From: Naumovozyma dairenensis CBS 421
Lineage: Eukaryota; Ascomycota; Saccharomycetes; Saccharomycetales; Saccharomycetaceae
Direction of reading: 5' to 3'
NCBI RefSeq assembly: GCF_000227115.2
Contig: NC_016482.1
Location: forward strand, 868,001 to 932,000
DNA length: 64,000 nucleotides
The notes under the pieces were generated by a model. That model had not been told where the DNA came from, ran no database searches, and worked only from the letters and a program-made list of their open reading frames with translations. Below are positions 1 to 39,204 of this stretch, piece after piece; within the stretch, counting starts at the first letter, position 1, and the number at the start of each line of letters is the position of its first letter. Made by a program: the position numbers and the translations under genes.

Positions 1-1058
1 TCCAAAAATAACCTACGAAATCATAATCTCCCGATGCAACAACAACCCGCTCGTGGACAATCACCTTCATTACTTTCTCCTGTACAAAACAAACGTCACA
101 TTAAGCAAATTAGTAATCCTAAAAAACCGTTATATGTCCCAGCTGTTCTACGGAACGTTTCAGAAACAAATATAACAAATGAAGATTTGAATTCATTATT
201 ACCATCATCATTATTACCACAACAACCATTACCACCTCCATCCACGTCAGCTTCATCTTCTTCACAAGATAAAATTATGAATAATAACAGTAAATTTAAT
301 TCACCACAACCATACATCTCTAATGATTTAATGCCACACGGTACTACAAGTGACCACCACAACTCTAACAGAAAGAATATAAACCCATTAATGACAATCA
401 CAAACGAGAACGGGATAACATTACCAACTACATCATCAAGATCCAGTATCAGATCAGCAACCTCTTCCATGATAGAATCATACAAATCAAAAGTAACATC
501 ATTCTTATTCCCTGATTCATCCATTACTAGACAAGAAGATGAACCATCACATGATCATTGGATCCCTGATTCGAAAAGATCAGAATGCTTAAAATGTCAT
601 AAAAAATTCACACTATGTGAAAGGAAACATCATTGTCGTCATTGTGGGGAAATTTTCTGTTCTGAACATTTACGTCATTGGTTATATCTGGATCATCAGG
701 CAAATTTCATAATTAGTACAAAAATAGATTTGTTTGAGAATGTCAACATGAATAACACTAATAATAATAATAACAGTAATAATGGTGGTGGGGTGCTTTG
801 TAAAGTTTGTGACTTCTGTTTGGAGAAATATGAAAATGTGTCAAATGAAAATAGTAAGATACAATTAAATGGGAATTCATCAGTTCATCATGATAACACG
901 ACGAATGAAAATGAACAACAACGAAATGGAAACGTGGCTGACAGTAATAATAGTAAACAAATTAAAAATGCAAATGAGATGAATAGTCGTAAAAAAAATT
1001 AAGAGAAGGTAGCTTTGTTGGATCTGTTCCAGCAAATTGGAATTGGAGTAGTTTTTAA
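1..1058 (+). CDS. PIB2: PIB2-like FYVE-domain protein, 3' part only, with a one-base frameshift near the end
   Basis: Pib2 is a PI3P-binding vacuolar and endosomal protein that signals glutamine sufficiency to TORC1. The frame is open at base 1, so the N-terminus lies outside the window. Visible in order: a KPLYVPAVLR motif (bases about 151-180), Ser/Asn/Pro-rich linkers, then a FYVE finger (about 550-850) with the RKHHCRHCG signature and a closing CKVCDFC pair separated by an Asn-rich insert. The literal frame stops at 1000-1002, just after an A8 run (991-998). One more A would continue as LREGSFVGSVPANWNWSSF and stop at 1058, which looks like the conserved C-terminal tail of Pib2. The gene order PIB2-MED3-CWH41 matches YGL023C-YGL025C-YGL027C. 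Family call is firm; the frameshift may be a sequencing error. Confidence 0.85.
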
Positions 1059-1404
1059 ACAAAAAACAAAAAACGAAACAAAACAAGAAATATGTATGTA
1101 TGTAATAGATGATAAGATGATCGTATCATAATATATATAAATATATAGAGATACGCTATATGTGTGCGTCAGCGTATCCGAAATATAAATGTTAATAGTA
1201 CAAGAAGTCTGCGTCTTGCTTTTTCATGAGATGTTTCTGTATTGTTTGTCTACTCTTTTAATGCACTGAGAGAAGTAGAAGACCGAATGAAACTTCCTTT
1301 CCCATAAACAAAAAATCTATAAATTTACCTTTTTTTACCTCATCTTGCAACCAATAGCATCATCTCAACTCCAGAACATTAATTGACCCATAAAAGGTTT
1401 TAGC
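1059..1404. other. intergenic, PIB2 to unrecognised gene
   Basis: Contains an A-rich stretch directly after PIB2 and a TATA-rich segment (about 1129-1150), which could serve the gene starting at 1405. No RNA gene or other coding signal seen. Confidence 0.6.
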
Positions 1405-2319
1405 ATGAACATAACTGATGAAGAAAGACAACGAAGGAGAAGAGAAAAGTTTTCAAATGCTACAACATTAAAGATTAAAAATGATTTACTAAAAGATACC
1501 TCCTTATTAAGTCGGACCACAACAGATTCAAATTCAAATATAAATTCATTAATTAATGATCCCATGACAAGATTAAACTACTTAGATCAATTGGAAGGAC
1601 TTTCTAACAGCCACAATGGTACTGATACCACCATTTCACTTGAGCATGGGTTACGGAAATTACGTGAAGTCATCATCAAGATCTATTATGAAAATTATAA
1701 AGATGGAAATTTCGTTACATTTGTGAAAAAAGTATATTTCCTAAGTTATAAGTATTTCATTTCTTCTTGCAAGATCAATGAGTTGGGAGGTACCATTTTA
1801 AGCTTTCTATACGAGCATCGTTACGAATTAGATGTCCCAAAGGAATATATCGATGTTTATCACTTCTATACATCTCATTTCCAAAAGAATTTAGGCAAAT
1901 TCATGCAAGAAATAGCGTTTAACCCAAACAGCAGCTTAGTGGGTAATGATAGGATAATAATGCGAATGGCATTAACATATGTGAAGTATAGTAGCTGCCC
2001 CAGTTTCTGGTTCCAATCGTTAGAAAGTTATTCTGAGGATTCTTTAGTTTATGAATTCCTAACTACATCTGGAATAAAAAAAAATATGCAAATACGTTGT
2101 ATTGATTTAGCAAGTAAATGCTATAATCAGCTTTCTCTTGATTTTTTCAAAGAACGATGGTTAGGTAATACTGTTTTGGATCCAGTGGGCCTTAGACAAT
2201 TAAACGATATTTATCTACTTGAAACTAGAAATAATGGTCATCAAACAATAATATTCAGAAAGAAGAATGCAACTCCCAAGGCTAAACAACGAATTCATAA
2301 TGGGATTGATAAATGTTGA
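1405..2319 (+). CDS. unrecognised protein, 304 aa
   Basis: I do not recognise this gene. It is a complete ATG-to-stop frame of 304 codons with ordinary composition for this genome. Residues 6-16 are strongly basic (DEERQRRRREK), residues about 25-75 are polar and probably disordered, and residues about 79-290 look like a mostly alpha-helical domain rich in Phe, Tyr and Leu. No signal peptide or membrane segment is evident. It contains an A9 run (2076-2084) that is in frame, unlike the runs in PIB2, ECL1 and OCH1. In S. cerevisiae nothing comparable lies between PIB2 and MED3, so it is either an ancestral gene lost there or specific to this lineage. The length and clean frame make it a probable real gene. 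Confidence 0.7.
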   Translation: MNITDEERQRRRREKFSNATTLKIKNDLLKDTSLLSRTTTDSNSNINSLINDPMTRLNYLDQLEGLSNSHNGTDTTISLEHGLRKLREVIIKIYYENYKDGNFVTFVKKVYFLSYKYFISSCKINELGGTILSFLYEHRYELDVPKEYIDVYHFYTSHFQKNLGKFMQEIAFNPNSSLVGNDRIIMRMALTYVKYSSCPSFWFQSLESYSEDSLVYEFLTTSGIKKNMQIRCIDLASKCYNQLSLDFFKERWLGNTVLDPVGLRQLNDIYLLETRNNGHQTIIFRKKNATPKAKQRIHNGIDKC

Positions 2320-2963
2320 CACATTGAACAACATGAATGCTAATCAATGAATATATGGCACTAAGGGTTTCTCCATTGTTACAGAATATCGATAATTAGA
2401 GGACTATACATCAAACTATATCATCCCTTATAGAAACTAAGTGTATATACTGTAATATCCGATTAAAACTAAAAGATACAAAAAGAAGGATCCTTCATAA
2501 AGTCCTGAAGTCAGTAATATTTGTAAGTTTCTTTCAAATGTCAATTCCCCCTTCAGTTGCTACTGTATTAGTGAGTCTTTCGATGGAACATAATCTAACA
2601 GCCGGATCGCTTCCTTTGTGTAGGACCATCAAAATGTATAAAATGGGTATTGACAAATTCTTCTTGGGTGGTAAATATTCAAAAAAATTTGATATACTCC
2701 TTTGACCATCCTCAAGGTCATACAAGCAAAACTTGGTAGTTGTTGGATGATCAATTTGCTGTCAGTTTGTTGTTACAATGGGCTAGTCAGGAATGCCTCT
2801 TGCATTTGGAGCCTATCGGATCAAAACAAACACCGTGTGCTTTGGGAATTCATTTAATTCTCTTTCATCCTCACAGTTAAATAAACAGTAATACGGTTGA
2901 GAACCAAAGAGCATTAGCCCAGTAATCCTTTTCATCACCAACCTCCAATACTCAACCAAATGT
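2320..2963. other. gene-poor stretch
   Basis: Several short broken frames in both directions, for example a 55-codon plus-strand ORF from the ATG at 2538. None is recognisable. This may be part of the decayed region described at 2964-3309. Confidence 0.4.
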
Positions 2964-3309
2964 ATGGCCTATATGGGTGATACACCACGTAACCAAACCG
3001 TCCACTATGATTATTTAAAGCCGTCATGGTTTCTTTTTTTGGACCGCTATGATCAAAACAATGGATTTATAGGATATCAATGTTTATACTGATGTTTTCT
3101 ACTCTGATGAAATGTTTTCTTGGTTACCTTAAACAGAACCATTTCTTTCATTAGTGATAGTGCCGCGAGGCAAAAATCCTAGTCGCATTGGCAAATGGGA
3201 TGATTTCGCTTACGATGCCTACAGATTCTGTTCTTTTTATTCTATATATTTTAAATATGAAGTGATAGTTCTTTCACTGGACATTTCTGGAACAAAGGAT
3301 GCATTATAA
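2964..3309 (+). pseudogene. probable decayed protein-coding remnant, family unknown
   Basis: A 42-codon frame from the ATG at 2964 to 3092 overlaps a second plus-strand frame (3073-3309) that runs about 79 codons with a single internal TAA near 3130. The translation around that stop has protein-like composition, for example DVFYSDEMFSWLP before it and GKWDDFAYDAYRFCSFY after it. One frameshift near 3073-3090 plus one nonsense codon would explain the layout. I do not recognise the family and cannot exclude chance, but composition and length argue for a relic. It lies upstream of the unrecognised gene at 3909. Confidence 0.4.
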
Positions 3310-3908
3310 ACAATAACTGTAGCTGTATTTGTACGTTGGATCTTCACTGTATACTCTTCCCGGAATAGTCTTCCGTGATCACTTAAGCGAGAAAAAGTCC
3401 GAACTCCGTCTTAGAGTCGTTGTTTTTAACCTCCTGCGCAGTTATTGTGGGTGTGTTGTGTGAATCGGAATATCTTTTGTTAGATTATCCGATCTTAATT
3501 CCTAATGTGGTAATTGTTTTATGGATTATTTGCAGGCGTTACTTTCATTAACTCTCTTTTTCCATTCTCTCCGGAGTTTGGATTGAACGATACATATTAG
3601 AGGTAAGCAACGGCATAATATAAGAGAAAGTGTCAGACAAGACTTGAATACAGTCAATGGCCTCAGTCGTTCTTTTATAGTGTTAACAATGACAGTAAGC
3701 GTCACAATAACACTTGTGTCACTAAGTTGTTAACAAAATGAATGTCAGAGGAAAATAAGAGTAATAGCAGTAAACTGGAATAGTCTAAAACTTATAACCT
3801 AGGTTTTTGACATTACACTTTTTTCTGGAAAGGAAATTCTATTTGGTGGATCCATTTAAGCATGTTTATTTTATACATATTAGAGGAAGCTAACGTTTTG
3901 TGTTTAGA
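3310..3908. other. intergenic upstream of the 3909 gene
   Basis: No frame of note. Runs such as gtgtgttgtgtg (about 3448) are low complexity. Nothing further seen. Confidence 0.5.
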
Positions 3909-4898
3909 ATGACCAGAGACCAAGAAGACGTAGGAGGGAAGGAAGTAGGCACACCATTTTTTTCCCTTCAAAAATCAACTACTCAGCAAGGGATACCCCT
4001 GAGGCGACCATTCGGGAAACGTAATATATGTCAGAGATGGGAAGTGTTGAAAGGCCTTGTTTCCGGAAGTACAAATATTACCCAAGAAGCCAATATGTTG
4101 ACAGACAATGATTGGATCATGGATGAACCATTTACTTTTGGTATCAGTAATGATTATTCCTTGGCAGTAATTTATAGAGACTATATCATGAAACATTATT
4201 TGGTAAGTCCCGAATACTTTGTCAACCACATGGGTTCAGACTTTCCCATAGATGATATTATAAGAGAAGGAAACCAACATACATTAGTTGTTGTAGGAAA
4301 TAGGCTTGAAATTCAGACTGCCTATCTTTCATGTGATATTGACGAAAAAGGTAAACATGGCTTAAATGATTGCCCTTTTTTTGTTCCCAACGTAAAGGAC
4401 CTTTTGGTTTCAATGGAAAGGGTCCAAGCCATTATATATAAAAGCGACAATTATAAAAAACTTCAAGAGATGCCTTTCTCCCCGTTCCAGAAATCTCATT
4501 CCTTTGATTTTCTTCCACCGTCACCTTACTCTGGTCTTCCAATCCAAGCAATTTTCTTTCATTGCACCGAATTGGAAGCAGAGACATATCGTGAATTATT
4601 GGTGGTTTATAGAAACCGAGTAATCCGTCAACATGACCCACCCACGGTTGAACGTGTTATGCGACTATTTTTAAATCCTCCATATGAAATCTATGTCAGG
4701 CCCTCCTTTATAACTGGCAAAGATCAAGAGAGTGCTGATGAATTTTCACATCAGGAACATTCTTCTGATGTCACGTGTGAAGAACGCAAAACATATCAAT
4801 ATTATACTGCACTGAAAGGTAAAAATTGGCTTGATATGATAAAAAGGGAAAAGGAACTTGAGGAGACTTTTCTCGATGCCTGCGGCCTAAGGCTTTAA
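3909..4898 (+). CDS. unrecognised protein, 329 aa
   Basis: I do not recognise this gene. The start is the ATG at 3909; the frame is open two codons further up, but only to a GTG. The 329-residue product has no obvious signal peptide or membrane span and no low-complexity tract, so it looks like a soluble globular protein. Distinctive segments are NDYSLAVIYRDYIMKHYLV (about residue 85), PFFVPNVKDLLVSMERVQ (about 160) and NPPYEIYVRPSFI (about 258). No catalytic motif is recognised. It sits between PIB2 and MED3, where S. cerevisiae has no conserved gene, next to a probable decayed ORF. This suggests an accessory, fast-evolving locus. Confidence 0.65.
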   Translation: MTRDQEDVGGKEVGTPFFSLQKSTTQQGIPLRRPFGKRNICQRWEVLKGLVSGSTNITQEANMLTDNDWIMDEPFTFGISNDYSLAVIYRDYIMKHYLVSPEYFVNHMGSDFPIDDIIREGNQHTLVVVGNRLEIQTAYLSCDIDEKGKHGLNDCPFFVPNVKDLLVSMERVQAIIYKSDNYKKLQEMPFSPFQKSHSFDFLPPSPYSGLPIQAIFFHCTELEAETYRELLVVYRNRVIRQHDPPTVERVMRLFLNPPYEIYVRPSFITGKDQESADEFSHQEHSSDVTCEERKTYQYYTALKGKNWLDMIKREKELEETFLDACGLRL

Positions 4899-5414
4899 AA
4901 AGCTGTGCGGACACTAGCACTCTATAAGTGCATCATTGCTAGCTTTTTTTTCTACGTGTTGTAATTACAAAGCATACAAGGTTTGACCTTATGTAAAAGG
5001 TATATATTCAGTTACTAACTATTCTTTAATAAACAAGGTAGAAGCCTATTTGTTATATAAGAGATTACTATTCTGTAAAATATGTTGTGATAACTATCAT
5101 TTGTCAGAAACTGTCTATTATTTCGTAATTCCTGTGACATTAATGGAAATCTTATCCGTAATGAAATCCACGGATAGGAGCTTATTTTCCTCAGAAATTT
5201 CATCAAAAAATATTTTAGTTGAACATTAACATTAATGGCTACAAACTTTAAAGGACCACATTAAGCTTGGTAACCTGCAATCCTGAAAGTTCCCTATAGA
5301 TCCAGTTATTCCTTGAATCTTCGAAATTGTAAGGGATCGATTATTAGCCTCTGCTCCAAGTTTTAAAGCAAACTAGAAAAAATCTGACCTAAAATTCCAT
5401 ATTTATTACGAACA
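4899..5414. other. intergenic upstream of MED3
   Basis: AT-rich, with no additional coding frame or RNA seen. A possible short hairpin (CTATAAGTGCATCATTGCTAG region, about 4920) follows the upstream gene. Confidence 0.5.
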
Positions 5415-6572
5415 ATGCAAACGTCAAGTGAATCAGAATTATCTAAACTGCTAACACCAAAGTTAACGCTCGATCAATTAGAAGATCGACTTGCCGGAGA
5501 CATCGATAATCTAGATACAACTGATCTTTCAGATGATTCGCTACCAAAACAAGTGATAGCGAATTCGTTAATAGAAACTGAAAAGTCTATTCTACCCTTA
5601 AGATTAGTTTTCAATAAACTTATACAGACGATGGCAACGCTGGATACTATGCCAGAAAAATCACAACAGGAAATGTTTTTGTCAATAAGGAATCAATTAT
5701 TGGATTTATATACAAAAATTCAAGAAATATCGACCGATTTCCAACATCTCCAACCCTTGTTTGGTACCATTGAAGAATATTCTGAGAAGAACAATACAAA
5801 AAAATTCCATATGCTAGAAACCTTAAAACCAATAGTTGAGCCTGCCCCTGCTACTGCAAAGGCCACAAAAGGCGATGCATCACATTCAAAGAAAAAATCC
5901 GTTGCCGGAACTCCTGGAAGTGTGGGGAATACACCTGTCGGTACGACACCTGGTAGTAGTACTGGTACTGTTGCTGCAAACGTTCCAGCAAATATAAATG
6001 CCAATACCACTAACACATCTACTACCAGTGCAGCAAGTACGACACAAACAACAAGCAGTACGGCAAAGAAACCAAGAAAACCAAGGCAGAATAAGAAGGC
6101 TGCAGCCAAAGCACAACAACAACAACAACAGCAGCTGCTACAACAGCAACAGCAACAGCAAATCCCAAAACAACAGGGAATCGCAACCAATCCGATGATG
6201 AATATGAATGCAATGAACGCTACTCCCATGATGAATAGTGTATCTCCTTCGAATGTGATGGGAACACCTTTAAATAATGGTATTTCTCCCATGGGAGCGG
6301 TTATGGCAGGAGGTTTCTATTCACAACCTCCAGGAAGTCAATCACAGCAGTTTGACCAACAAATGAATAATGGAGATCATAATACCAATAATAACAACTT
6401 CCAGAACATGAATAATATAACACCTGCAAATATTTTGAGCATGAACACTGTAGGAGATCCTCAATCTAGAATGGCATCTTCCTCTCAGCAATACCCTACT
6501 AATAACAACAATAACAATACGTTGGATTTGAATAATTTGGACCTAAGTAGTTTGAATATGGATTTCTTGTGA
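5415..6572 (+). CDS. PGD1: Mediator tail subunit Med3 (Pgd1/Hrs1)
   Basis: Med3 is a fungal tail-module subunit of Mediator, contacted by activators such as Gcn4 and forming a unit with Med2 and Med15 in the nucleus. The 385-aa product (397 in S. cerevisiae) has a predicted coiled N-terminal region (about residues 1-130, starting SELSKLLTPKLTLDQLEDRL), a Thr/Ser/Ala-rich linker, a basic stretch (KKPRKPRQNKKAAAKAQ, about 216-232), a glutamine tract (bases about 6115-6175), then a Met/Asn-rich region and a C-terminal end rich in Leu-Asn-Asp. The gene order with CWH41 and SCW11 matches YGL025C-YGL027C-YGL028C, except that TRP5 (YGL026C) is absent from between them. Confidence 0.9.
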   Translation: MQTSSESELSKLLTPKLTLDQLEDRLAGDIDNLDTTDLSDDSLPKQVIANSLIETEKSILPLRLVFNKLIQTMATLDTMPEKSQQEMFLSIRNQLLDLYTKIQEISTDFQHLQPLFGTIEEYSEKNNTKKFHMLETLKPIVEPAPATAKATKGDASHSKKKSVAGTPGSVGNTPVGTTPGSSTGTVAANVPANINANTTNTSTTSAASTTQTTSSTAKKPRKPRQNKKAAAKAQQQQQQQLLQQQQQQQIPKQQGIATNPMMNMNAMNATPMMNSVSPSNVMGTPLNNGISPMGAVMAGGFYSQPPGSQSQQFDQQMNNGDHNTNNNNFQNMNNITPANILSMNTVGDPQSRMASSSQQYPTNNNNNNTLDLNNLDLSSLNMDFL

Positions 6573-6573
6573 T

Positions 6574-6610
<37 letters not shown>

Positions 6611-6926
6611 CTTTATATTCTAAAATATTACATCGATTATTCAGAAACACTATATGTATGGATTATAGAACGGTAAGTTAGAGGATTCTAATCAATTTTT
6701 ACTCTGGAACTGTACTTGTTTCTCTTAACATTAAACTGCTCTTCGGACATTCTGTCACTTTTCCCGCAATTGGACATCAAAAGGAAAAATACCAAATGTC
6801 AAATTCCATTAATAATAAAACACTTTAAACTGAACATTTTTTATAGAGGCTTTAACTTCATGGAAGAATTGTCTTAAATACCTAAGGTTTAGAGATAAGA
6901 TTTATTGCAGATACCACACAGGAACC
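6573..6926. other. intergenic MED3-CWH41 with AT microsatellite
   Basis: Begins with an alternating AT run of about 14 units (6579-6607) immediately after the MED3 stop. The rest is the CWH41 promoter; no specific site assigned. Confidence 0.6.
6579..6607. repeat. (AT)n dinucleotide microsatellite
   Basis: About 14 uninterrupted AT units, starting 6 bases after the MED3 stop codon. It probably lies in the 3' UTR and could act as the AT-rich efficiency element of the yeast poly(A) signal. Confidence 0.9.
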
Positions 6927-9362
6927 ATGGTGGGAATCAACATACTAACTTTTTGTTGGCTTTTATTCCAATCAGTTGCCGGTTCAGACGACTTTGAAAA
7001 TGATGTATATGAGAAATCAATAAATCAAACATTATTATGGGGTCCGTATAGATCAAATTGTTATTTTGGTATTACACCACGTTATATCGATGAATCTCCC
7101 TTTGTCATGGGGTTGATGTGGTTTGATAGTCATTTAACTAATGGGATATCTTCAATGAGACATTTTGTTGATGAAAATGATAGGATGAAGAAATATGGTT
7201 GGAATGCATTTGATCCAAGAATTGGTGGCGAAGAAGTTATCATTGACGAAGAAAATAATGTTAATTTGAGCTTGTCTTTTGTTAAAAGTCATGATGGATT
7301 GAACTGGGCTTTAAGAGTGAAGGGGAAACCATTGGATTTGAATAAGAAATCTACTACTTCCATTGTGTTGTACATGCAACAACAAGGTGATGCCAATACA
7401 AATGAATTATTAAAGACAAGAGACGAAGAACACTTTGTTTTAAAGGGTAAGTCTACTCAGTTGGGTAAGTATGATATCTCGATCAAAGATAATGAAGGGC
7501 GTTATTATAAGGACCCAACTTTAAAATCAATGAAAATTGCTGAGGGGGCAGATTGTTCACAAATGAGCCACTTATCATTGAATGTTCCTGACCACGAAAG
7601 TTGGAAAGCTCGTGATATATTTCAAACCATTATTGGTGATTCCATTAAAGATATCGTTCAAGAACAAGGCAGCATGGACAATTTTGATAATAGATTAACT
7701 CCAAGTTTGTATCAGATAAGAAATATTTATAACCTACCGCCAGGTAACTTCCATTATGTTCAAAAGACATTTGATCTTTCCGATACAGAGGGTTTTGAAT
7801 TTGATATGATTTTTAACAGTGCTCAATCAAAGCAAAGGATCGAATCATATAATGAGATTAGCAGTTTAATAACTTCGGCTTTGAATGAAATTAACATCAA
7901 ATTCGATAAGATTTTTACCATCGATTCTGAAGAAAAAAGAAACTTTGCTTTAGAGACATTATCTAACTTATTGGGTGGGATTGGTTATTTCCACGGTACT
8001 CAAATTATTGACAGAACTACTGTATTTGATGAAGATCAATTCCAAGAAATTAAATTGATTAATGGTAAAGAAGAAGGACCATACTCCTTATTTACTAGTG
8101 TTCCAAGTCGTAGTAAATTTCCTCGTGGGTTCTACTGGGATGAAGGTTTCCATCTGTTACAGATTATGGAATATGATCTTGATTTAGCATTTGAAATAAT
8201 GGCAAGTTGGGTTGATTTAATTGATGAAGATGGTTGGGTAGCTAGAGAAGTTATTCTTGGGGATGAGGCAAGAAGTAGAGTTCCAGCGGAATTTACAGTC
8301 CAAAGCCCGAAAATTGCAAATCCACCAACATTATTATTGGCATTCAGTGAAATGCTACAAAGGGTGACCGGTAATGTTGATAATTTTCACTGTGATGAAT
8401 CCACTGAGGATGACACAATTGGGGATTTTACACAAGATGGTAATCGACTTGAAAATAATCCCGATTTAATCAAAGAGTATGCTAGAAAAGTGTACCCCAA
8501 ATTATTGAAGCATTATAATTGGTTTAGAAGAACTCAAAAAGGTGTAATTGATGAATATTCTGATATTTTTGAGGAAGAGGGTATTTGGGATTCTATCCAT
8601 AAGGATGAGGTTTTCAAGTGGGTAGGACGCACCGCTACTCATTGTTTACCAAGTGGTCTAGATGATTATCCAAGGGCTCCAACTCCAGATATAGCTGAAT
8701 TACATGTCGATGCCCTTTCTTGGGTTGGTATAATGACAAGGTCGATGAAACAAATTGCAAATATCTTGAATCAAGAAAATGATGAAAAATTATACGCTCA
8801 AATTGAATCGAACATTATTGAGAATTTAGAAACACTTCACTGGAATCCAAAGAGTGGCAGTTACTGTGATATTACTATAGACGAGGAATATGGTGATAGT
8901 CGTGAATTTATATGCCATGACGGATATATATCTCTTTTGCCATTTGCTTTAAAGTTAATACCAAAGGACTCACCCAACTTAGATAAAGTCGTTTCATTGA
9001 TAGCTGATGAAGACAAATTGTTCTCTCCATTTGGTATACTTTCGTTATCTAAACAAGATGAGTATTTTGGTAGAGGTGAAAACTACTGGAGAGGGCCGAT
9101 CTGGATGAACATTAATTATTTGGTCCTTGATGCCTTGAAATACTATTATCCTGAAATAACTTCAACACAAAAATCGAAAAGAACACCAGCCGCTAAACTA
9201 TGTAATGAATTGAGCAACAGATTAATCAAGAACGTCTATCGAGTATGGAAGCATTCAGGATATTGTTATGAGAACTATAGTCCGATAGACGGCCATGGCA
9301 TGGGGACCGAGCATTTCACAGGTTGGACTGCCTTGATTGTCAATATTCTCGGTCGTTCCTAA
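6927..9362 (+). CDS. CWH41: ER processing alpha-glucosidase I (GH63)
   Basis: Removes the terminal alpha-1,2-glucose from the Glc3Man9GlcNAc2 N-glycan soon after its transfer in the ER; needed indirectly for beta-1,6-glucan. The 811-aa protein (about 833 in S. cerevisiae) has a hydrophobic N-terminus (residues about 4-18) acting as signal or type II anchor, the GH63 N-terminal beta-sandwich opening with LLWGPYRSNCYFGITPR, and the C-terminal (alpha/alpha)6 barrel. Family landmarks include FPRGFYWDEGFHLL (about 393), HCLPSGLDDYPRAP (about 572), whose Asp pair includes the presumed general acid, and YCYENYSPIDGHG near the C-terminus, which carries the presumed base Glu. Complete, with no disruption. 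Gene order supports the call. Confidence 0.97.
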   Translation: MVGINILTFCWLLFQSVAGSDDFENDVYEKSINQTLLWGPYRSNCYFGITPRYIDESPFVMGLMWFDSHLTNGISSMRHFVDENDRMKKYGWNAFDPRIGGEEVIIDEENNVNLSLSFVKSHDGLNWALRVKGKPLDLNKKSTTSIVLYMQQQGDANTNELLKTRDEEHFVLKGKSTQLGKYDISIKDNEGRYYKDPTLKSMKIAEGADCSQMSHLSLNVPDHESWKARDIFQTIIGDSIKDIVQEQGSMDNFDNRLTPSLYQIRNIYNLPPGNFHYVQKTFDLSDTEGFEFDMIFNSAQSKQRIESYNEISSLITSALNEINIKFDKIFTIDSEEKRNFALETLSNLLGGIGYFHGTQIIDRTTVFDEDQFQEIKLINGKEEGPYSLFTSVPSRSKFPRGFYWDEGFHLLQIMEYDLDLAFEIMASWVDLIDEDGWVAREVILGDEARSRVPAEFTVQSPKIANPPTLLLAFSEMLQRVTGNVDNFHCDESTEDDTIGDFTQDGNRLENNPDLIKEYARKVYPKLLKHYNWFRRTQKGVIDEYSDIFEEEGIWDSIHKDEVFKWVGRTATHCLPSGLDDYPRAPTPDIAELHVDALSWVGIMTRSMKQIANILNQENDEKLYAQIESNIIENLETLHWNPKSGSYCDITIDEEYGDSREFICHDGYISLLPFALKLIPKDSPNLDKVVSLIADEDKLFSPFGILSLSKQDEYFGRGENYWRGPIWMNINYLVLDALKYYYPEITSTQKSKRTPAAKLCNELSNRLIKNVYRVWKHSGYCYENYSPIDGHGMGTEHFTGWTALIVNILGRS

Positions 9363-9648
9363 AAATTGTGATATATAAAGTTATTTTATAACGAAACCCA
9401 ACAGACTAATTGAGCCATGCAAAGCACATTTTTACGGTGGCACTTTAGCTTGGCAATTCATTTGTATAGTTATCTCTAGTGATAAAGCCACATTGATGAA
9501 ATATAAGTCAGCAATGATGTCTACAAAAGCATTTCTTGGCACCTGCCCGCAATCATGCAACTCTATTGTGCCTTCCTTTGTAGTTCATAAGTGGAGCTCA
9601 GCGGTATGCTCAGCGGCAGTTTTTGTTTTCATTTTTCGTTTTTGTTTA

Positions 9649-9678
9649 TGCTGGTATTTCCTTCGTCCTTATGCTGGG
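9649..9678 (-). promoter_or_regulatory. candidate Ace2/Swi5 binding sites upstream of SCW11
   Basis: ACCAGCA (complement of 9649-9655) and CCCAGCA (complement of 9672-9678) resemble the RRCCAGCR consensus. In S. cerevisiae SCW11 is a daughter-specific Ace2 target, so the pair is plausible. Short motifs 660-690 bp upstream of the ATG; moderate support only. Confidence 0.45.
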
Positions 9679-10168
9679 CATTGCGCAGTGACTTTACCCC
9701 GCGACGCGCCACAGAGGTCTCGATTCTCGAAGTGACATTTTTTGTTGATGTTTACATTTTGAAAAGCTTGAACTTACAGGCTTCATCTTCTTTGAAACAA
9801 GCTTTTCTTCTCGAGGAGTTCTGGTTGCTCTTGGAGTTCTGCCCAGCTTTCAATGGGTGAAGATGTCTGCTAATTGCGGGAGCATAACAAAATTCTATCT
9901 TGATGTACCTCCAATTTGAGAAAGTATAAACAAATCTCGATCTCAACGAGAGTATGAAGTTTGTTTGTATGTTTACATGCAATTCAATGTCGACATGGTC
10001 ATGTCTCCAAGAACCACTTTCGACCATGCACGATCGATGTTCCGAAATATCCCTGCTTTTCTCCTCGGTTCGACTACAGGTTTGTTTACATTGGCATGAC
10101 TTTTCTTTGCCAAGATAAAACTATAGAGCCAAGTTGTCTTTCGAAGGAATTGAACACCCTTCGACTGA

Positions 10169-10176
10169 TATAAATA
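10169..10176 (+). promoter_or_regulatory. TATA box of SCW11
   Basis: TATAAATA, 164 bp upstream of the SCW11 ATG. An exact TATAWAWR match at a usual yeast distance. Confidence 0.6.
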
Positions 10177-10339
10177 GTCAAGTCAGATTTGAATATTTAT
10201 CACTTTTCAATGGTTTTCTTTTTCAATATCATGTTATCCTGTTTTATAGGGATTTGATAACTATAACGAACAGTTCTTGTTATAACGATAAAGAAAAAAA
10301 TAAACGCTCACTCATTGATTCATACAGGAACTTCGCACT

Positions 10340-23700: not shown

Positions 23701-24440
23701 ATGTCTCCATTTAATGATTACTGCATCGTCTGTGAAAAACTTATCGTGTCCACTCCTTCATCCTTTGTTAACCAACTGTCAAATGATCATGGTAACAGCA
23801 ATAGCAATAACAACGCTAGTAGCAGCAACAGCAGCATTAGTCTTTCTACTTTAGTAGAAAGCGAAAGACTCTATTGTTCTGAATCATGTAGATTAAAAGA
23901 TGCTAATGCACAACAACAGCAGCAACGAAGTGTCTTGTCACTACCTCCAATTAATAATGATGAAATCTCTACATTCGCTTTAAATTCAGCAAATAAACCA
24001 AACATAATAATCAACACAACAGAAAATAAAAATACACAAAGTAATAATAACATTCATGATAATACAAATATTGCATCGAGTAATAATAACGGTTACAATA
24101 ACAATGAAAATGGTTCTTTATCAGTGCCAACAAACTACACTGTAAATACTCCTTTAAATGGTGCTAATCTCGAAGAATCAGATTCATTAATTACATCTCC
24201 CTTATTATTACCAAAAAAAATAACGAAAACATAAACTTTAATGACAACTCATATCCTAATTACGAGGATTTACTCATCGAAGATGATTTCTGGTTAACTG
24301 ACTACCAAGCTTCTTCCATTATACCAAAAGCATTAACGAATTTCTATCCAACTACCACTCTTTTAAATTCTTCAACAAATTCAATCATTGATCAAACAGC
24401 TGAAAATAATTACAAAATTTGGCTAGGTTACAATCATTGA
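23701..24440 (+). CDS. ECL1: Ecl1-family lifespan/stress protein, frameshifted at an A8 run
   Basis: Ecl1-type proteins extend chronological lifespan and respond to nutrient, sulfur and metal starvation. The N-terminus FNDYCIVCEKLI and LYCSESCR supply the family's Cys pairs. Residues about 25-165 are Asn/Ser-rich. The literal frame stops at 24232-24234, just after an A8 run (24213-24220). One extra A continues as NENINFNDNSYPNYEDLL, then acidic and aromatic residues, and ends NNYKIWLGYNH at 24440, the type of C-terminus found in the family. Total is then about 246 aa. The ECL1 and ENP2 tails face each other as in YGR145W/YGR146C, with SEC9 inserted between them. Confidence 0.82.
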
Positions 24441-29379: not shown

Positions 29380-29789
29380 TTTTTTATTTTATCTGTGTAG
29401 AGAATATATAGGTCCGTAATTGGTAATCTTATAATATTGGATGTTAGGTGGTAATCTTAATGTTATTTTTATCTAACTTCTAATCAATATACAAACGCTA
29501 TTATTATTACTATGAATTTTTTATTATTCAAATGAGATGAGATGAGATGAGATGAGCTTCTTCCCAAAAAATTTTCAATTAATTTTTTATAGGATGATTA
29601 CACCCGTACATTACATATAGTAGAAATGTAACTGGGGTTACCCGCCTGCTTACCAAAAATGACAGTATATTAATGTTTATCATGCTTAGAGACTATAATA
29701 ATAAACTATGACTATATAGATTAGTTAATAATGAATAGATAAATATAGGACGACGAATGAAGAAGTGTCACTCATGCACATATAATTTT
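29380..29789. other. intergenic between ENP2 start and VIR1 end
   Basis: Contains the ENP2 promoter with GATGA pentamer repeats and an RRPE. No other gene seen. Confidence 0.6.
29531..29573 (-). promoter_or_regulatory. RRPE and PAC-like repeat in the ENP2 promoter
   Basis: On the ENP2 strand, TGAAAATTTTTT (complement of about 29562-29573) matches the RRPE consensus TGAAAAWTTTT. It is followed by five CTCAT units with CTCATC cores (29533-29556), the first six bases of PAC (CTCATCGC). These lie about 155-195 bp upstream of the ATG, the usual place for the pair in ribosome biogenesis genes. The 5-bp periodicity is also a tandem repeat in its own right. Confidence 0.65.
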
Positions 29790-32690
29790 TTAATATTGTT
29801 GTTGTTCGAATTCATCGATATGAATAGATTGCGCTCTACTATTATTTCTGACACGATTATGACCTCCTAGAATATAATTCTTGCCAGTATTGACCATTTT
29901 ACTTGAACTGAAACCAGGAGATTCATTCCATAGAGTGCTATTTTTATTATTCGAATTATTAGTAGTTGCTGTGGTATTTATATTGGAGCTTGTCGTAGAT
30001 GTATTATTCGATGCCATTGAAGTCGGTGTCTTGGGCATATTGGAAATAGAATTATTCATTATTTCATCAGAGAGGTTATTTCTATGAGGAACTGCGTTGT
30101 GCATATCCATTCGTTGCGAGGAGAATGTATCAACTGGCACTGGTGCTGATGTCATTGTCATTGTCATATGACCACCATGGTTGTCAATACCTGTTGCACC
30201 CGCTGAATACATATATTTGTTCGTGGTGCTATTTGCTGATGATACCATTGGAGAAGGGAAAGATTTATTTGACGGAATAAAAGATGATGTTGTATAGGCA
30301 TCATATTTTGTCGAGGATGATGATGTTGTTGATGAAATAAAAGGCTTCGAGACTCCTAACCTATTTGGTACAGGTTGTATCGGAGATGCCTGTTCAATGG
30401 TATTCTTATTATTTTTGTTAACATTAATATTAGTTCGTAGCATACTATTATTGGCCACTGTGGCTTTACTACTGACGGATAAGTCTAGCGACCCAAACTT
30501 ATCAGCGAAATCCGGTAATTGTTTCACTAGATCGATTATTGATGATAAAGTTGGCCTCACATTTTCGTTATCAAATGTAGGTTGTTTAGTATCAAACAGT
30601 ATTTCAAAGAAGTTTTTGTAATCTTCTGAGCCATCATTCCATGAGCTAATATATTTGTTTAAGGCTTGAGTAGTCAATTCATTTTGTAAGCATAACTGTT
30701 TGATATAATCTGGGTTTGAAGCATTATGGAAGAACAAATGGTTCAGCAAGTTAATTGACACCTTCTGTAATGATAAATCTTCCATGGAAATTTTTTCGAT
30801 GAACTTAATCAGATGGAACAATGACATATTGCCATGTAATTCAATTAATGCTTCTAGTGCTTTCGTAGTATTAGCTATTAAGGATAGACCTAGCGATGTA
30901 TTTTTTCGTTGGTTATTCTTTAGTAGATCGGATAACAAGAAGCATGATATTATTGGAATGAAGCATATCTCCATATATTTTTCATTTGTTAATAGCCTAA
31001 TTGATGGGTCTACTTTATTTCTATCATTATTCGATATATAAACGTTATCTTTATTATTCTTCGTGTTTTTGGCATCGGCTGTTTCTGCTTTATTAGCATA
31101 GTTATTTTGAAGATCTAATGGGTTTATACTTAACGCCTTGTATTGACTCAAAATATTTTTGTTAATAATAATTATTAAGTTTAAGGACTCGAGTAATGAT
31201 GATATAATATTTTTAAAGCTATTGTTACCGCTTAATTGGAATAGCGGATCAATGTCATCATCATCAAGTTTTGCTTCAAAGATGAATAAAGATTTTGATA
31301 TTGGTGGTATTGGAGGTATCATAACTTCATCAAACCATGGTGGTACAATGATATCTGTATTGGACATTACATTACTTTTACTATTTGAAATGCTATTAGT
31401 ATCAGAATATTGTGAGCAATTTTCTAAATCGATCAAAAATTTCGCTAGTAAGAATTGTGCCATATTAAAGATAGCAATTAAAGTCTGAGTCGAACCCATT
31501 GAACTTAGCGTTTTGTGTAGAATATGAATCGGTATATGATTTGAAATGTTTTGTAATGCAATTTGTAATAGAAGTACTAATCTTGGCTCTTTTAAATAAT
31601 TCAATTCTGGGTGGTCAATAAATTCCATTATTACTTTCAGATGGAAAGTTAGATCATCTTTATGATTTTTTATTCCTTGTTCATGAGAATTTTCAATGAC
31701 TTCGTTTTTCCTTACAGAAGAAATAGTGGAGGGCGTAACACCTTTTGAGATGATTAAATCCAATGCATTTAAGTATATTGTATTTGGAATCAATTTAGGG
31801 AACATTGAGATTCTTTTCGATAGTTCATAGACAATAAAAGGATTATAAGTTTGTTGTTGTTCTCCGTCTTTAGTAGTATTCAAATTGAATACATCGTACT
31901 TTAGAGTTATTATCGATGTAGCAATAAAGAAATCGATACTTGTCACGTTTAAAACCGTTGTAAGTAGTCTACTATCCGAATAAATATTGCTGTTTTTGTT
32001 ATTTGGATATGGAGATGACAACAAAGTTGGAGATGACGATAATGAAGATAAAGTAGTCGAAGGTGAATCGCCTAAATCGATAAAGGATTTCCATTTAGGG
32101 ATCCAAGAATTTATTAAAGGATTTATCAAATTGAAATTGAAATAGTTTAATAGATCTGGAGTTAGGCATTCAAATTGCTCAATTTTATTGATTACGGTGT
32201 AGAATCCTAGCTCTTCATTATCACTTACAATTGTGGATTGACTGTTTAATAAGAGGTGATACCAATTGTCCCACGAATCAATGATGAATTCATGTAATGA
32301 TTTATGAATGGAACAATATGCGAACAATATTGAAAACAAATCGAGTTTATAATTATAATTTTCATCAAAGATGAATTCATCATTATTGTCGGTTTTCAAT
32401 ATTGGAGTGAAAATATCCACATTTTTTAAGTCAATTCGGAAGCTTTTTTCTTGGAATGGTAAATATTTCAGAGAATTTATTATATTCAGGATCAATTTAG
32501 AAATGTTTAAATCTGGATTATTTATATTTTGGAAGGCATTAATTAATGACTCAATTAAATGGTTAACAGTTTGCTCAGAGACTTGATTACGAGCAGGTGC
32601 TATGTTAGAGTCAGTGGAAAGATAAGATTCTTCTTTTTCATCACAGCTTCTGGGAGTATCGTTATTCGATCTGGGCTCCCTTCGGTGCAT
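29790..32690 (-). CDS. VIR1: Vir1-like protein (YGL036W), m6A methyltransferase complex component
   Basis: The S. cerevisiae gene in this position, YGL036W, encodes Vir1, a virilizer-like scaffold of the meiotic Ime4 mRNA methyltransferase complex. The first ATG in frame is at 32690 (the frame is open 12 codons further to a TTG), giving 966 aa (about 909 in S. cerevisiae). The protein is mainly helical and Leu/Ile/Asn-rich (about 40-700), consistent with an armadillo-like scaffold. A low-complexity Ser/Thr/Asn tail ends RAQSIHIDEFEQQQY. I assign it by position between MIG1 and PNC1, its orientation and its size, and by general character rather than a single motif. Confidence 0.75.
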   Translation of the reverse strand: MHRREPRSNNDTPRSCDEKEESYLSTDSNIAPARNQVSEQTVNHLIESLINAFQNINNPDLNISKLILNIINSLKYLPFQEKSFRIDLKNVDIFTPILKTDNNDEFIFDENYNYKLDLFSILFAYCSIHKSLHEFIIDSWDNWYHLLLNSQSTIVSDNEELGFYTVINKIEQFECLTPDLLNYFNFNLINPLINSWIPKWKSFIDLGDSPSTTLSSLSSSPTLLSSPYPNNKNSNIYSDSRLLTTVLNVTSIDFFIATSIITLKYDVFNLNTTKDGEQQQTYNPFIVYELSKRISMFPKLIPNTIYLNALDLIISKGVTPSTISSVRKNEVIENSHEQGIKNHKDDLTFHLKVIMEFIDHPELNYLKEPRLVLLLQIALQNISNHIPIHILHKTLSSMGSTQTLIAIFNMAQFLLAKFLIDLENCSQYSDTNSISNSKSNVMSNTDIIVPPWFDEVMIPPIPPISKSLFIFEAKLDDDDIDPLFQLSGNNSFKNIISSLLESLNLIIIINKNILSQYKALSINPLDLQNNYANKAETADAKNTKNNKDNVYISNNDRNKVDPSIRLLTNEKYMEICFIPIISCFLLSDLLKNNQRKNTSLGLSLIANTTKALEALIELHGNMSLFHLIKFIEKISMEDLSLQKVSINLLNHLFFHNASNPDYIKQLCLQNELTTQALNKYISSWNDGSEDYKNFFEILFDTKQPTFDNENVRPTLSSIIDLVKQLPDFADKFGSLDLSVSSKATVANNSMLRTNINVNKNNKNTIEQASPIQPVPNRLGVSKPFISSTTSSSSTKYDAYTTSSFIPSNKSFPSPMVSSANSTTNKYMYSAGATGIDNHGGHMTMTMTSAPVPVDTFSSQRMDMHNAVPHRNNLSDEIMNNSISNMPKTPTSMASNNTSTTSSNINTTATTNNSNNKNSTLWNESPGFSSSKMVNTGKNYILGGHNRVRNNSRAQSIHIDEFEQQQY

Positions 32691-34626
32691 TATAATATCT
32701 GATCTTCGTAAAATGAAACTGCTCAATCACTTCTCTCTTTGCCTATATATATATTATTCTTCTCTAAAGATGAAAAATGGCAATAATATCGTCCAAGATG
32801 TTTCTACCTACTGCTTCTAAAGATATCAAAGGATGATGAGCTACTTGCAATGTTTACAGATCTTGATACTACTTTTTTTGCCTCTGGAGTTTTGAACTAC
32901 GGATAATTCAAGATCTTTATTTTTCTCCTCGGACAAGTTTCGAGCGGAGGAGGTTATAGAAAGTTCGGAATGACTATATATATGTAAGTTAGTTACGGTC
33001 GATAAATGATATTCTCGAACTAGACTAATCAAAATGGCACAAGTTTCCCTAGACCATACGGGACAGGATATAATCTAGACGGGAGTTTGGCCATGGTTAG
33101 ACAGTATTTTAGCTGAAGGAGAGAACTGCTTATTATGTATGTTTGTGACCATTGGAAAATGATCCAATATGCTTCAATACATAAAAATTCTGCTTTTCTT
33201 CAAGTACTAATATATCATTTTCGTAAATATGTAGAATGGTCTGGCTAAAATACACATACTTTACTAGCTTTATATTACCCAGATACTAACATGTATAGGT
33301 AACTTATATCAATAGATCGGTATTCCCCGAAGGATTACACGTAAACCGATTCCTCTCAAACGGACAACATTACCTGTGTGATATCAATAGCCATTATTTT
33401 TATCCACTATTAGACAGATACGTATGTTTGAAGACTGTGGAAGCGCCACATAATAGCGTGTCTTTGTTATTTTTGTGTCATAGTTATTTATTATTATTGA
33501 TTGTCATCGAATTCTTACGTCCAAGCTACAGCCGTGCATTACGTACATATATTTGCGTTCATAAGTGGACAAGAGTTCGTGAATTATATACAAAGGGGAG
33601 ACTGACCGAGTGTGTGTGGGTGGGTGCTTTTCGAGATACGTAATTTTTGTCCACTTTGAACCTGTTTCTCCCCGCGATTTCTGCCCCTCATTTGAATACG
33701 TACACTGTGCAATACCATTCAATACTTCCCCCCTTTGTTGAAAGTGGCGTATTTACGTAATGTTGTCGGCGATATACTTAGAATCTGCTTCAACCTTAAG
33801 ATGGTACATAGGTTCAGATAGGTGACGAAGTGAGGGTTGGAGTAAATATCTGGACTGTATTGAGAAGTTTTCTGGGGAGTTAAGGGGGGCTAGAATAGTT
33901 TCCAGTTAGGGTATGATCAGGAGGTAGAGATAAATACTTTTAAGACCAATGTAAGGAAAAGCAATTCACTACAGGCGAAATCAATATTCTGAAAGGTAAC
34001 GACTGGTACCTTGGCCAAGGATATGCCTGTTCACTTTTGTCGTTTCATTAGAAATCTTTATACATTATCTAGTGACAGCATGAGAAGAAGAGGTCTTATG
34101 AAAATGATTTGTCGAGTAAAATGTAAGAAAATCCATGTTATCTTATTATTTAAACTCGACACTGATGAGGCGGGGATTAAAAAAGCCTGTATACATGTAC
34201 ACTATGTAGCGATATATTACATTTCTATGTCAAGGGGGTTAGGGGTAGGGTTTAGAACCTTTTATCTCGGGTAGCTGTTGACGGGGTGTATTTTTTTCAT
34301 CTTGGTGTTGAAACGCGGGGGGGACATATTTTCCACCCCTCCCATTTCTGGTGACTTTTCCCCTTATTACGTACGTAGGTACTATTTAGTTACCTTTTGT
34401 AAAGTAGAAAAATATCAAAATTTCCTCTACTCAACTATTCGAATAAAAAGTTGCTTTCATTGAATCGTGCAACATTCAGAAATAGATTATTTAAGATACT
34501 AATTAGTTAAGCATTTGGTTTATTGAATATATATATGTATAGGGGTGAAACTCACATTATAGAAATAAAGAACCTACTTGTGATTAAAGAAAAATAAAAA
34601 GAAGAACTAAAAAGAATAAAAACAAA
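32691..34626. other. divergent VIR1/PNC1 promoter region
   Basis: 1.9 kb. The PNC1-proximal part contains four STREs (34233-34364). No coding frame with protein character is seen among several 60-85 codon ORFs. Runs of TACGTA occur at about 33541, 33695, 33755 and 34370. Confidence 0.6.
34233..34364. promoter_or_regulatory. four STREs upstream of PNC1
   Basis: AGGGG at 34233-34237 and 34241-34245; CCCCT at 34336-34340 and 34360-34364, about 260-395 bp before the ATG. S. cerevisiae PNC1 is induced by many stresses through Msn2/Msn4 and its promoter also has multiple STREs. Confidence 0.7.
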
Positions 34627-35268
34627 ATGAAAGCTTTATTGATCATTGACGTTCAAAATGATTTCCTACCACCTAACGGTACATTGGCAGTTCCTCATGG
34701 TGATGAAATTGTTCATCCAATTTTAGAGTTGATACATGATGAAAAGCAAGATTGGCATCGTGTAGTAATGACAAGAGATTGGCATCCTAAAAACCATATC
34801 TCATTCGCAAAGAGACATAATCAGGAACCATACAGCAAGATAACATACAAATCTCCTAAGCCTGGTGACAAAACCACTCAAGAAGGTGTCTTATGGCCTG
34901 TTCATTGTATTCAAAATACAAGGGGAAGTCAATTGGCCGATCCTTTATTGAAAGAAACATATAAAAATCATTATAAGATAGTGGATAAGGGATTTTTATC
35001 TGATAGAGAATATTATTCTGCCTTCCATGACATTTGGAATTTCCATAAGACTGAGTTGCATGAATATTTACAAAAACATCATATTACTGAAGTGTACATC
35101 GTGGGATTGGCATTAGATTATTGTGTTAAAGAAACCGCAATTTCTGCAGCAAAATTGGGCTATAAAACTACAATTCTAAAAGATTATACAAAACCAGTAA
35201 ATTCTGATGATGAATCAATGATGAAGTTGAAAGAAGAATTCAATTCTTATAACATTAAATTAGATTGA
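34627..35268 (+). CDS. PNC1: nicotinamidase Pnc1
   Basis: Hydrolyses nicotinamide to nicotinic acid and ammonia in the NAD salvage pathway; by clearing nicotinamide it supports Sir2 activity and lifespan. The 213-aa protein (216 in S. cerevisiae) starts MKALLIIDVQNDFLPPNGTL with the catalytic Asp in IDVQNDF. The zinc ligands lie in TRDWHPKNHISF and WPVHCIQ. The catalytic Lys is in the YKIVDKGF stretch (about 120-127), and the nucleophile Cys in LALDYCVKETA (about 164-174). The isochorismatase fold is complete. Gene order VIR1-PNC1-OCH1 equals YGL036W-YGL037C-YGL038C. Confidence 0.97.
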   Translation: MKALLIIDVQNDFLPPNGTLAVPHGDEIVHPILELIHDEKQDWHRVVMTRDWHPKNHISFAKRHNQEPYSKITYKSPKPGDKTTQEGVLWPVHCIQNTRGSQLADPLLKETYKNHYKIVDKGFLSDREYYSAFHDIWNFHKTELHEYLQKHHITEVYIVGLALDYCVKETAISAAKLGYKTTILKDYTKPVNSDDESMMKLKEEFNSYNIKLD

Positions 35269-37732
35269 TTCTGCATAAGAAAAAACGTCTATTCTATATT
35301 TTCTCTCTTCCTTCCTTTTTTTCAGGCACTAGGTATATAATAATATAGATACAAATTTTCCTTTATTTGCTTCTGTCAACACCGCTATATAAAATCTAGC
35401 TCTTCAATCCAGTTATATATTGTGAAGATAAATGTCGTGTGGATACCGGAAGAGGGTATTTTTCCTGGCTCGATAACACCTGGGAAGTGTTAGAATAGCT
35501 CGATAGGCCTGGCTGATATGCCCTGAAAAACCACCATATATCAAATATATAGAGGAAACGTTACGTAGTGTTACCATTAGACGTGCATTGTCCCCACTGT
35601 CAGCAAAGTGAGGCAGGATATACTTGTGTACAGTATGTCCATGGAGGCTTCAGGTTAGCATTTAGGCTCTAAGTTAGAATTTTTTAAATTTGATATCCTA
35701 CACATACTTTGAAACAAGTCGGTTGTAACGTTGGTAAATATATTCGGAATAAACGGGGTATTCTTTAGATCTAGGAAGGAGATTCCATTCTGGAAGGGCA
35801 CGAGTAGGAATACTTTTCTACTCAAAACTATTTCAGTACCTATACTTCCTTTCTACTCCGCTTATGAAAATATTCTAACGTGCCCTTTACTCTACTCTAC
35901 CTAAATTGAGTGGCTAAGTACTTTACATCTATTTACTGTATATTTTAAGGCAAATAAGTGGTCTTGAGCGTCCTTTTCCTATATTCATCAGTAACTCAAC
36001 ATGAATTGTCCATCCAAATAACTCTTTCGACAACAGTATTGGTTAGGCTTCTAAATGTTCTGTTATGGAAAATGTAAATTACTATATTTAAATAGTACGT
36101 ATTTTCTGATCTTTATACAACATAACTCATTTTCAACAATCTGACACCACCCTACTTTTAACTTTTTTATTTATTTTTCATTTGAAGATAGCGCTTCAAA
36201 TAAACATCCCCAAAACTTATGAAAAACCTACGAATCATAGATGTTTTATAAACAATTATGTGTAAAGTTGATTTAGTTGCTCTAAACTATACATAAGTTA
36301 ATAGACTTAAGGATGGGGTAGTATAAGCTGAATACTAGTTATACCCTGATCAAGTATAACGTGGATCCTAATAAAGTGTATCACCCGCATATGCGACACG
36401 CCGAGCTTGACGATCCTTTCAAGAACTTCTAATGAGAACTTTGCAACTGAAGCTACTTTAGAAAACGTTACCAATCTTAGAATCCTCTAGGTATTCACCA
36501 TATCACATTATTACCCTTGCTGCTTATTATATAACCGAACCTATAATACGAGACTTATATATATAATTCCTGAACGTTTTAATAGATAACCCTGAAGTAT
36601 CAATAAGAAGTAAATTACATCTAACATTATGCTAAGAACTTGTTGGATTAACGCCTCAAATGAACAGCAAGTGCCAGTGAAACCACGATCCTTACTATTA
36701 ATTTAATATGAATATGTTAGTGTTTTAAATCATGTCGTATGACACGATGTGATGTGCAATTAAATTTCATGAGTGTATAAGCAATGAATGGGTAACAACA
36801 GACATCGTCTTTGCACTGCTTCTGTTCATGCCGGATACTTTTCTCAGGAATGACAAAAGTTTAAACCTTTCCCCATTCCTAATGGAAACTAGAAGCCCCT
36901 TCAGATAAACTACTACAAAAGCATAGGTATGTTTCAACCAACCCTCTCTTTTGAAATATACATTTATCTTATCTTCTTGTATTGATCATATTTGTCCTCA
37001 TATATGTCTTGTATATACTTTACAAAATGCTTTGGAATCATCAAATTATTTGTTTTCTCGAAGTCATTCTACCCTTTACCCAATTTTAGTTCACTCTACC
37101 CTTTTTGTCCAAAAAATTGCCCTTAAAATCCCTCGCCTGCTACATGCCTAGGCTGCGAGAGGCGTTTCTCTTTTCTCTCCTGTCAATCTTAAGTTCCAGA
37201 TCTTCTATTTATAAATTGACAATCGACCCATTCTCTGAAGATCTCCGCTTCGGGTAATCTTATTGGAGTGCCCAACGATAAAAATATGCGGTCGATGGGC
37301 GGGCCAGATTCTCTCTGTTCAGATACTCTGGGCAGCCGCCAAACGCCAGCAGTCAAAACGCAGCTCTTTTCCAAAGATAAAAATACACGTGAAAAACTTG
37401 TACAGGTTAAGGTTGTTTTGCTTTGATATAAATCAATATATGCTACGTATTGTATTGTATCATATATATTCTTCAGAAAAACGTCCTATTGACAGCTTAA
37501 ACCATTTGGAAATGCAGCATCGAAACGCCGTTCATCTATTAAATATACATATATATCTCAAGAACCGATCCGTCATACATCTCTTATCTATAAACGTCAT
37601 CCTATTACTGATTTTTTTTTTCCTTTGGGATTTGATAGCAACATCTAATACCAGCACAAAAAATTTCATTATTCTCAATAAAAGCTACTTTAAAAAGTAA
37701 GTCATAGGCATAACATTCAAATATTCAAAAGA
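35269..37732. other. 2.5-kb gene-free region PNC1-OCH1
   Basis: The longest stretch without a recognisable gene. Open frames are short, and the 145-codon one just before OCH1 (37263-37700) starts at TTG and has no protein character. No tRNA, LTR end or Ty motif recognised. It may be the residue of genes lost after duplication. Confidence 0.5.
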
Positions 37733-39204
37733 ATGATACCGTTACAGAAAAATATGAGTAAAAGAAAAAGAAAATCTATCATTCTATCAATAATAATAAT
37801 CTACTCCATATTAGCATTCCATTATGGTAACAAGAAATTCTCAAACCAATTCAATAAGGCTAGCATTTATAATGTAAGTACCAAAAATTTAATAGATTTA
37901 CCAACAACTTCTCACATTGATGACATAAACTTGAAAACCTTCCAAAAAAAAATGAAAATATTTTAAAAGATGAAATTAATGATTTACGCAAACAATTATC
38001 GAAGATGTTCCCATATGATACACAAAAACCAATACCAAGAAAAATATGGCAAACATGGAAAGTATCAACCAATGATCCAACTTTCCCATCAAATTTTAGA
38101 AATTTCCAACAAAAATGGTCTCTTGCAGCAAAGGAAACTGAAAACAGTACTCCCAGTGAGGAGAAATTCCAATATTCCTTAATAACAGATGACAATATCG
38201 AATCATTACTAAACAATGTCTACGGTGAAGCACCACTAGTGATCGATGCCTTCCAATTAATGCCAAATAATATCTTAAAGGCTGATTTCTTTAGATATTT
38301 AATTCTATATGCAAGAGGTGGGATATATTCCGATATGGATACTATTCCTTTAAAGGAATTAAAAGATTGGCCTTCTCTTTCATCTTCCTCATCTCCTTCA
38401 TTATTTTCCTCTGCACCTATCCCATACAAAGGTTTCATTCCCTCTTCACCTTCAGCTTCTGTTTCTCCTTCGGCCTCGTCAAGAAAAGAACCAGGTTTGG
38501 TCATCGGTATAGAAGCTGACCCAGATAGAGAAGACTGGAAAAAATGGTACGCAAGAAGGATTCAATTCTGTCAATGGACAATACAATCTAAACCAGGGCA
38601 TCCAATATTACGTGAATTGATCTTGAATATAACATCAACAACATTAAATAGTGTCCCACATTCCAATTTAAAGAAAATAAGAAATTCCATGATTGATTCC
38701 ACTGTTAAGAATGATTATAATATTAATTATAGAGACAAGAGACGCGATGATAAGAATTATAAGCATGATTCTTTAAAAACATTCGATAACGTGGATGGAA
38801 GTGATATTATGAATTGGACGGGACCTGGGATTTTCTCTGATATCATATTCGAATATATGAATAATTTAGTTAAGACAAACTCAGATATCATTCTAATTAA
38901 TTCAAATTACGTAGTGATACCGAATCTTCGACCACAGCTAATGAGGAGAATAATGAAAAATCAACAAAAAAATAATCACACAAAAATAGAGAACTCATTG
39001 AATTTGAAAAGATTAATACCATGGGAGTTTTTCACCTTGATAACAGAACCAGTACTAGTGGATGATATAATGGTGTTACCTATAACAAGTTTCTCTCCAG
39101 ACGTGGGCCAAATGGAGGCAAAATCAAGTACTGATGAAATGGCATTCGTCAAACATATGTTTGAAGGTTCATGGAAAGAAGAAGCTGATTCCAACAAAAA
39201 ATAA
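37733..39204 (+). CDS. OCH1: Och1 initiating alpha-1,6-mannosyltransferase, frameshifted at an A9 run
   Basis: Golgi type II enzyme (GT32) that adds the first alpha-1,6-mannose to the N-glycan core, starting outer-chain elongation. The literal frame from 37733 (or the ATG at 37754) stops at 37964-37966, just after an A9 run (37944-37952). With one more A it continues KNENILKDEINDLRKQLSK into FPYDTQKPIPRKIWQTWKV, giving about 490 aa (480 in S. cerevisiae). Visible: an N-terminal membrane anchor (about 15-30), the DXD site in GGIYSDMDTIPL, the GLVIGIEADPDR and ARRIQFCQWTIQ blocks and VDGSDIMNWTGPGIFSD. All downstream family residues are intact, so a sequencing error is the simplest explanation. 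Confidence 0.92.

Follow-up and report, generated by a model that had tools for sequence, protein, structure and literature searches.

Frame breaks at runs of eight or nine A in PIB2, ECL1 and OCH1 of Naumovozyma dairenensis very probably reflect homopolymer under-calling in the assembly

The window analysed here is a stretch of 64,000 nucleotides of N. dairenensis CBS 421. On its forward strand lie the 3' part of PIB2, ECL1 and OCH1, in each of which the reading frame runs into a stop shortly after a run of A and coding sequence appears to go on in another frame. A further A run provides a comparison; it lies in frame within the gene at 1405-2319, for which GET4 is a tentative name. Features are numbered from the first base of the window, and coordinates on the contig that holds the window carry the prefix C4.

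1..1002, + strand: upstream frame of PIB2, 3' part, with the FYVE domain (gene start at C4:866072, outside the window)
991..998, + strand: A8 run at the PIB2 frame break (read from the sequence)
1020..1058, + strand: PIB2 tail GSVPANWNWSSF with its stop, in the other frame (W-x-WSSF ending in 60/71 matches)
2076..2084, + strand: A9 comparison run within the gene at 1405-2319, in frame (a shift brings no gain)
23701..24234, + strand: upstream frame of ECL1, 177 aa, with a Pfam Ecl1 match
24213..24220, + strand: A8 run at the ECL1 frame break (sequence and coding model)
24221..24440, + strand: probable continuation of ECL1 in the other frame, ending NNYKIWLGYNH (codon statistics)
37733..37966, + strand: upstream frame of OCH1, membrane anchor and LPTTSHIDDINLK (alignment to relatives)
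37944..37952, + strand: A9 run at the OCH1 frame break (read from the sequence)
37953..39204, + strand: OCH1 catalytic domain in the other frame (the public prediction P0001 begins at 38005)

The sequence places the three runs exactly where an earlier note on this DNA had put them, with eight A in PIB2 and ECL1 and nine in OCH1. Stops soon after each run, which that note had also described, are found in the upstream frames at 1000-1002 (PIB2), 24232-24234 (ECL1) and 37964-37966 (OCH1), at most 14 bases from the run in every case. In a frameshift-aware coding model, the only sense runs of at least eight A in coding sequence of the whole window were these three and the run at 2076-2084. The model agreed with the note that this fourth run, an A9, is in frame.

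To place the OCH1 break, we aligned the gene with 14 relatives chosen from at least 120 listed. In all 14 cases, the anchor piece (37733-37963) aligned to one part of the relative and the catalytic piece (stop-to-stop frame 37924-39204) to the part that follows. In the own-genome search, the anchor piece matched residues 18-82 and the catalytic piece residues 64-468 of one relative, and OCH1 had one close match, the rest being partial and at most 53% identical. Comparison with relatives confirms, at the level of sequence, that OCH1 is split between its predicted membrane anchor and its predicted catalytic domain.

For PIB2, 71 matches to the C-terminal third were compared. The ending W-x-WSSF was present in 60 of them and absent in 11, namely P0166, which has further domains, and ten other FYVE proteins that matched with E values no better than 3.7e-9. 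In the window, GSVPANWNWSSF followed by a stop is encoded at 1020-1058, in a frame that differs from the upstream frame of PIB2. The relatives confirm this as the predicted tail that the upstream frame has lost. The tail motif of Pib2 is described as required for TORC1 reactivation in S. cerevisiae in the available text of PMC9584352. The PIB2 break, with its short tail, was overlooked by the frameshift-aware model (gain 0).

The ECL1 run was the highest of the 14 sites scored by the model, with a gain of 10.9 nats for the frame change after a penalty of 9.2 nats. A search for homologues of ECL1 found only ECL1 itself, and a search of the genome revealed no second Ecl1 match. Reading through the break neither raised nor extended the Pfam Ecl1 match (31.7 versus 34.4 bits). 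From codon statistics, the ECL1 break and its continuation are probable. The expectation of the earlier note, that one added A returns each gene to a continuation resembling its family, is borne out by relatives for PIB2 and OCH1, but for ECL1 no family-like end could be demonstrated.

Public predictions follow the broken frames of OCH1 (P0001, 399 aa, beginning at 38005 and lacking the anchor) and ECL1 (P0192, 177 aa), which concerns anyone who uses the annotation. These short forms are what would be expected if the short products were natural, with truncated PIB2 and ECL1 proteins and an OCH1 protein starting at 38005. Against this reading, the neighbouring frame still encodes the anchor of OCH1 and the tail of PIB2, an OCH1 protein starting at 38005 would miss an anchor that is found in 14/14 aligned relatives, and the ECL1 continuation has the statistics of coding sequence. 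We see hardly any chance that the short products are natural.

The survey of breaks was extended to 200 kb around the window (264 kb with it) and to 50 kb of contig 7, giving 314 kb in total; the coding model was trained on the 264 kb and applied to all 314 kb. Sense runs of at least eight A in coding sequence numbered 21 (17 in the 264 kb and four on contig 7). Three of the 21, those of PIB2, ECL1 and OCH1, carry a break, and none was seen at the other 18. Three of these 18 (C4:948228, 956566 and 960707) are ~30 bases or less from where a gene ends or begins, beyond the model's reach; inspected by eye, without a homology test, they showed no evident continuation. None of the three sense runs of at least eight T in the 314 kb was broken, too small a number to judge. 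Broken long A runs make up three of four inside the window versus none of 17 outside it (p = 0.003), a comparison biased by the choice of the window, which was made with these three breaks in view.

The model called 17 events in the 264 kb. Inspection by eye left nine possible shifts, including ECL1 and OCH1, and this sorting is subjective, since two dropped sites (6.6 and 6.0) rival the retained OCH1 (6.5) and SCL1 (3.2). The eight dropped sites (C4:885820, 887448, 908250, 944457, 959481, 992356, 1001830 and 1021997) were judged by eye to be introns, gene ends or gene starts. On contig 7 (50 kb), all three model events were gene-end artefacts and no convincing shift was found.

Outside the window, SCL1 (proteasome alpha 1; C4:848282-849054, minus strand) breaks at a T5 run near its N-terminus, and its two pieces match residues 1-20 (the N-terminal part) and 19-252 (the rest) of one PDB sequence. 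The genome carries SCL1 only once; in S. cerevisiae, the gene is essential. A PDC1-like pyruvate decarboxylase gene (C4:778327-780017) breaks at a T3 run after MSEITLG, which lies in another frame than the main one; the match of the main frame begins at chain residue 11. Codon statistics point to a candidate frame change at an A6 run before the polyglutamine tail of the gene at C4:809839-812054, presumably SKN7-like. They also suggest possible events at C4:864981, 1016323, 1016448 and 1021107. Three of these four would be an extra base, and at C4:1016448, where a base would be missing, no clear run is seen. The interval C4:1016323-1016448, on the minus strand, may be bounded by a compensating pair of shifts, as another frame suits ~125 bases better while the first frame stays open. 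Four stretches of N, either gaps or withheld sequence, occur in the flanks of the window, at C4:792237-792289 (53 bases), 800485-800503 (19), 860321-860340 (20) and 1020975-1020994 (20). The last of them adjoins the possible one-base shift at C4:1021107.

The better-supported sites in the 314 kb are six: PIB2, OCH1, SCL1, the PDC1-like gene, ECL1 and the SKN7-like gene. The total is at most ten, several of these being called from codon statistics and sorting by eye. The breaks occur at runs of A6, A8, A9, T3 and T5. The earlier note had stressed that base and run length were the same in the three genes. This is true within the window, but it does not stand as a rule, given the 18 unbroken A runs and the breaks at T3, T5 and probably A6. 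Breaks at T runs and at short runs mean that the pattern is not specific to A8 or A9.

Of the ten sites, seven are short of a base and three carry an extra one. A preponderance of losses could also arise if the deletions were true mutations that the strain itself carries, as a mutator background could produce, so that the genes were truly broken; single-base loss in A and T runs is known in mismatch-repair-deficient yeasts. However, at the level of protein families, the genome has six MutS-type matches with open frames of 881-1263 aa and three MutL-type matches with open frames of 793-917 aa. A mutator strain was rejected on the strength of these long open frames. True mutation would also have broken the only copy of SCL1, and the sequence past the breaks is well conserved in OCH1, SCL1 and the PDC1-like gene. 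Coding sequence is intact on both sides of the breaks. We consider it very unlikely that the strain truly carries these deletions.

Slippage on A tracts, which the earlier note had offered beside under-calling, would leave the runs real and restore the frame through -1 ribosomal slippage or through slippage of RNA polymerase. Programmed -1 ribosomal frameshifting occurs at A AAA AAN, and each of the three upstream frames contains a slippery heptamer of this type at its run. However, the heptamer is also present at the in-frame A9 run at 2076-2084. Unlike sites of programmed -1 frameshifting, the three runs have no stimulatory RNA structure on their 3' side by pseudoknot-free folding against shuffles; downstream folding was not better than that of the shuffles (z = -0.39, -1.19 and -0.03, compared to -0.89 for the comparison run). 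The split frame is also not conserved in relatives, with none of the 14 aligned OCH1 proteins divided and 60/71 PIB2 matches carrying the tail, so that one protein runs through the site. The T3 and T5 breaks are beyond rescue by A-tract slippage, and transcriptional slippage would harm genes with in-frame A runs.

For the frameshifted genes of Blochmannia, transcriptional slippage at homopolymers has been put forward, and in the available text of PMC3017870 the indels likewise fall in A or T tracts of genes that are otherwise intact. Blochmannia is described there as a very AT-rich endosymbiont in which some indels are conserved between species, whereas the GC content of the window is 32-37% (in 4-kb steps) and the relatives are unbroken. 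A-tract-specific slippage was demoted because of the unbroken majority of long A runs and the breaks at T runs. We regard restoration of the frame by slippage as extremely improbable. An elaboration is less probable still, in which the A8 and A9 runs are real and full-length Och1, Pib2 and Ecl1 are made only via low-level slippage that tunes glycosylation and TORC1 signalling together; Pib2 and, by its Pfam name, Ecl1 act on TORC1. Real runs would mean that several yeast genes are decoded through A-tract slippage, for which we know of no precedent.

Roche-454 pyrosequencing measures homopolymer length from signal strength and miscounts runs. The N. dairenensis genome comprises 13,527,580 bases in 11 contigs. 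A review table in PMC5499181 lists CBS 421 with 13.5 Mb on 11 chromosomes, citing Gordon et al. 2011, and the available text of PMC3507789 states that the Gordon et al. project used Roche-454, N. dairenensis itself not being named in that text. From these two papers we infer a Roche-454 origin of the assembly. For N. castellii, PMC3507789 gives 184 frameshift sites, and 109 corrected ones comprised 81 additions and 28 deletions. For T. blattae (14.1 Mb), the same text gives 398 inserted bases (194 A and 184 T) and 48 deleted bases, spread over 418 genes. The nearly equal shares of A and T in T. blattae are what a strand-blind error gives.

From these published counts, we computed densities of ~16 per Mb for N. 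castellii and ~32 per Mb for T. blattae. The density of breaks in the region surveyed here, 19 to 32 per Mb (6 to 10 sites in 314 kb), is similar to that of the sister genomes. At such densities, a stretch of 64 kb would hold three or more breaks with a probability of 0.09 to 0.33. In the 454 assemblies of N. castellii and T. blattae, as in N. dairenensis, single-base indels split conserved genes, are mostly missing bases and affect A and T alike (available text of PMC3507789). In contrast to the breaks reported here, which are deduced from the assembly alone, the indels of those two species were identified, and partly corrected, from reads.

Some observations count against under-calling, namely the clustering of broken long A runs in the window and the lack of a convincing shift on contig 7 (50 kb). 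The direction seen here is also not predicted by an assessment of 454 errors, in which, in the available text of PMC3116506, insertions outnumber deletions in reads. Of the two explanations proposed in the earlier note, under-calling is well supported by the fit of the genome to a 454 project, the breaks at T and short runs, the inclusion of SCL1 and the density of breaks, whereas slippage is not supported, given the 18 unbroken runs, the T breaks and the lack of structure. Collectively, we are highly confident that the three breaks are base-calling errors through homopolymer under-calling, the assembly being one A short in each run. Miscounting of homopolymers in pyrosequencing would have left an A out of each of the three runs, and the base is most likely absent from the assembly alone. 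The three breaks would then be part of a few hundred leftover indels in the genome; in the yeast itself, all three genes are probably intact.

The three breaks probably have no biological significance. Anyone inferring gene loss, new start sites or recoding in N. dairenensis needs to consult reads first. If the density found here holds over the whole 13.5 Mb, ~260 to 430 such sites would be expected.
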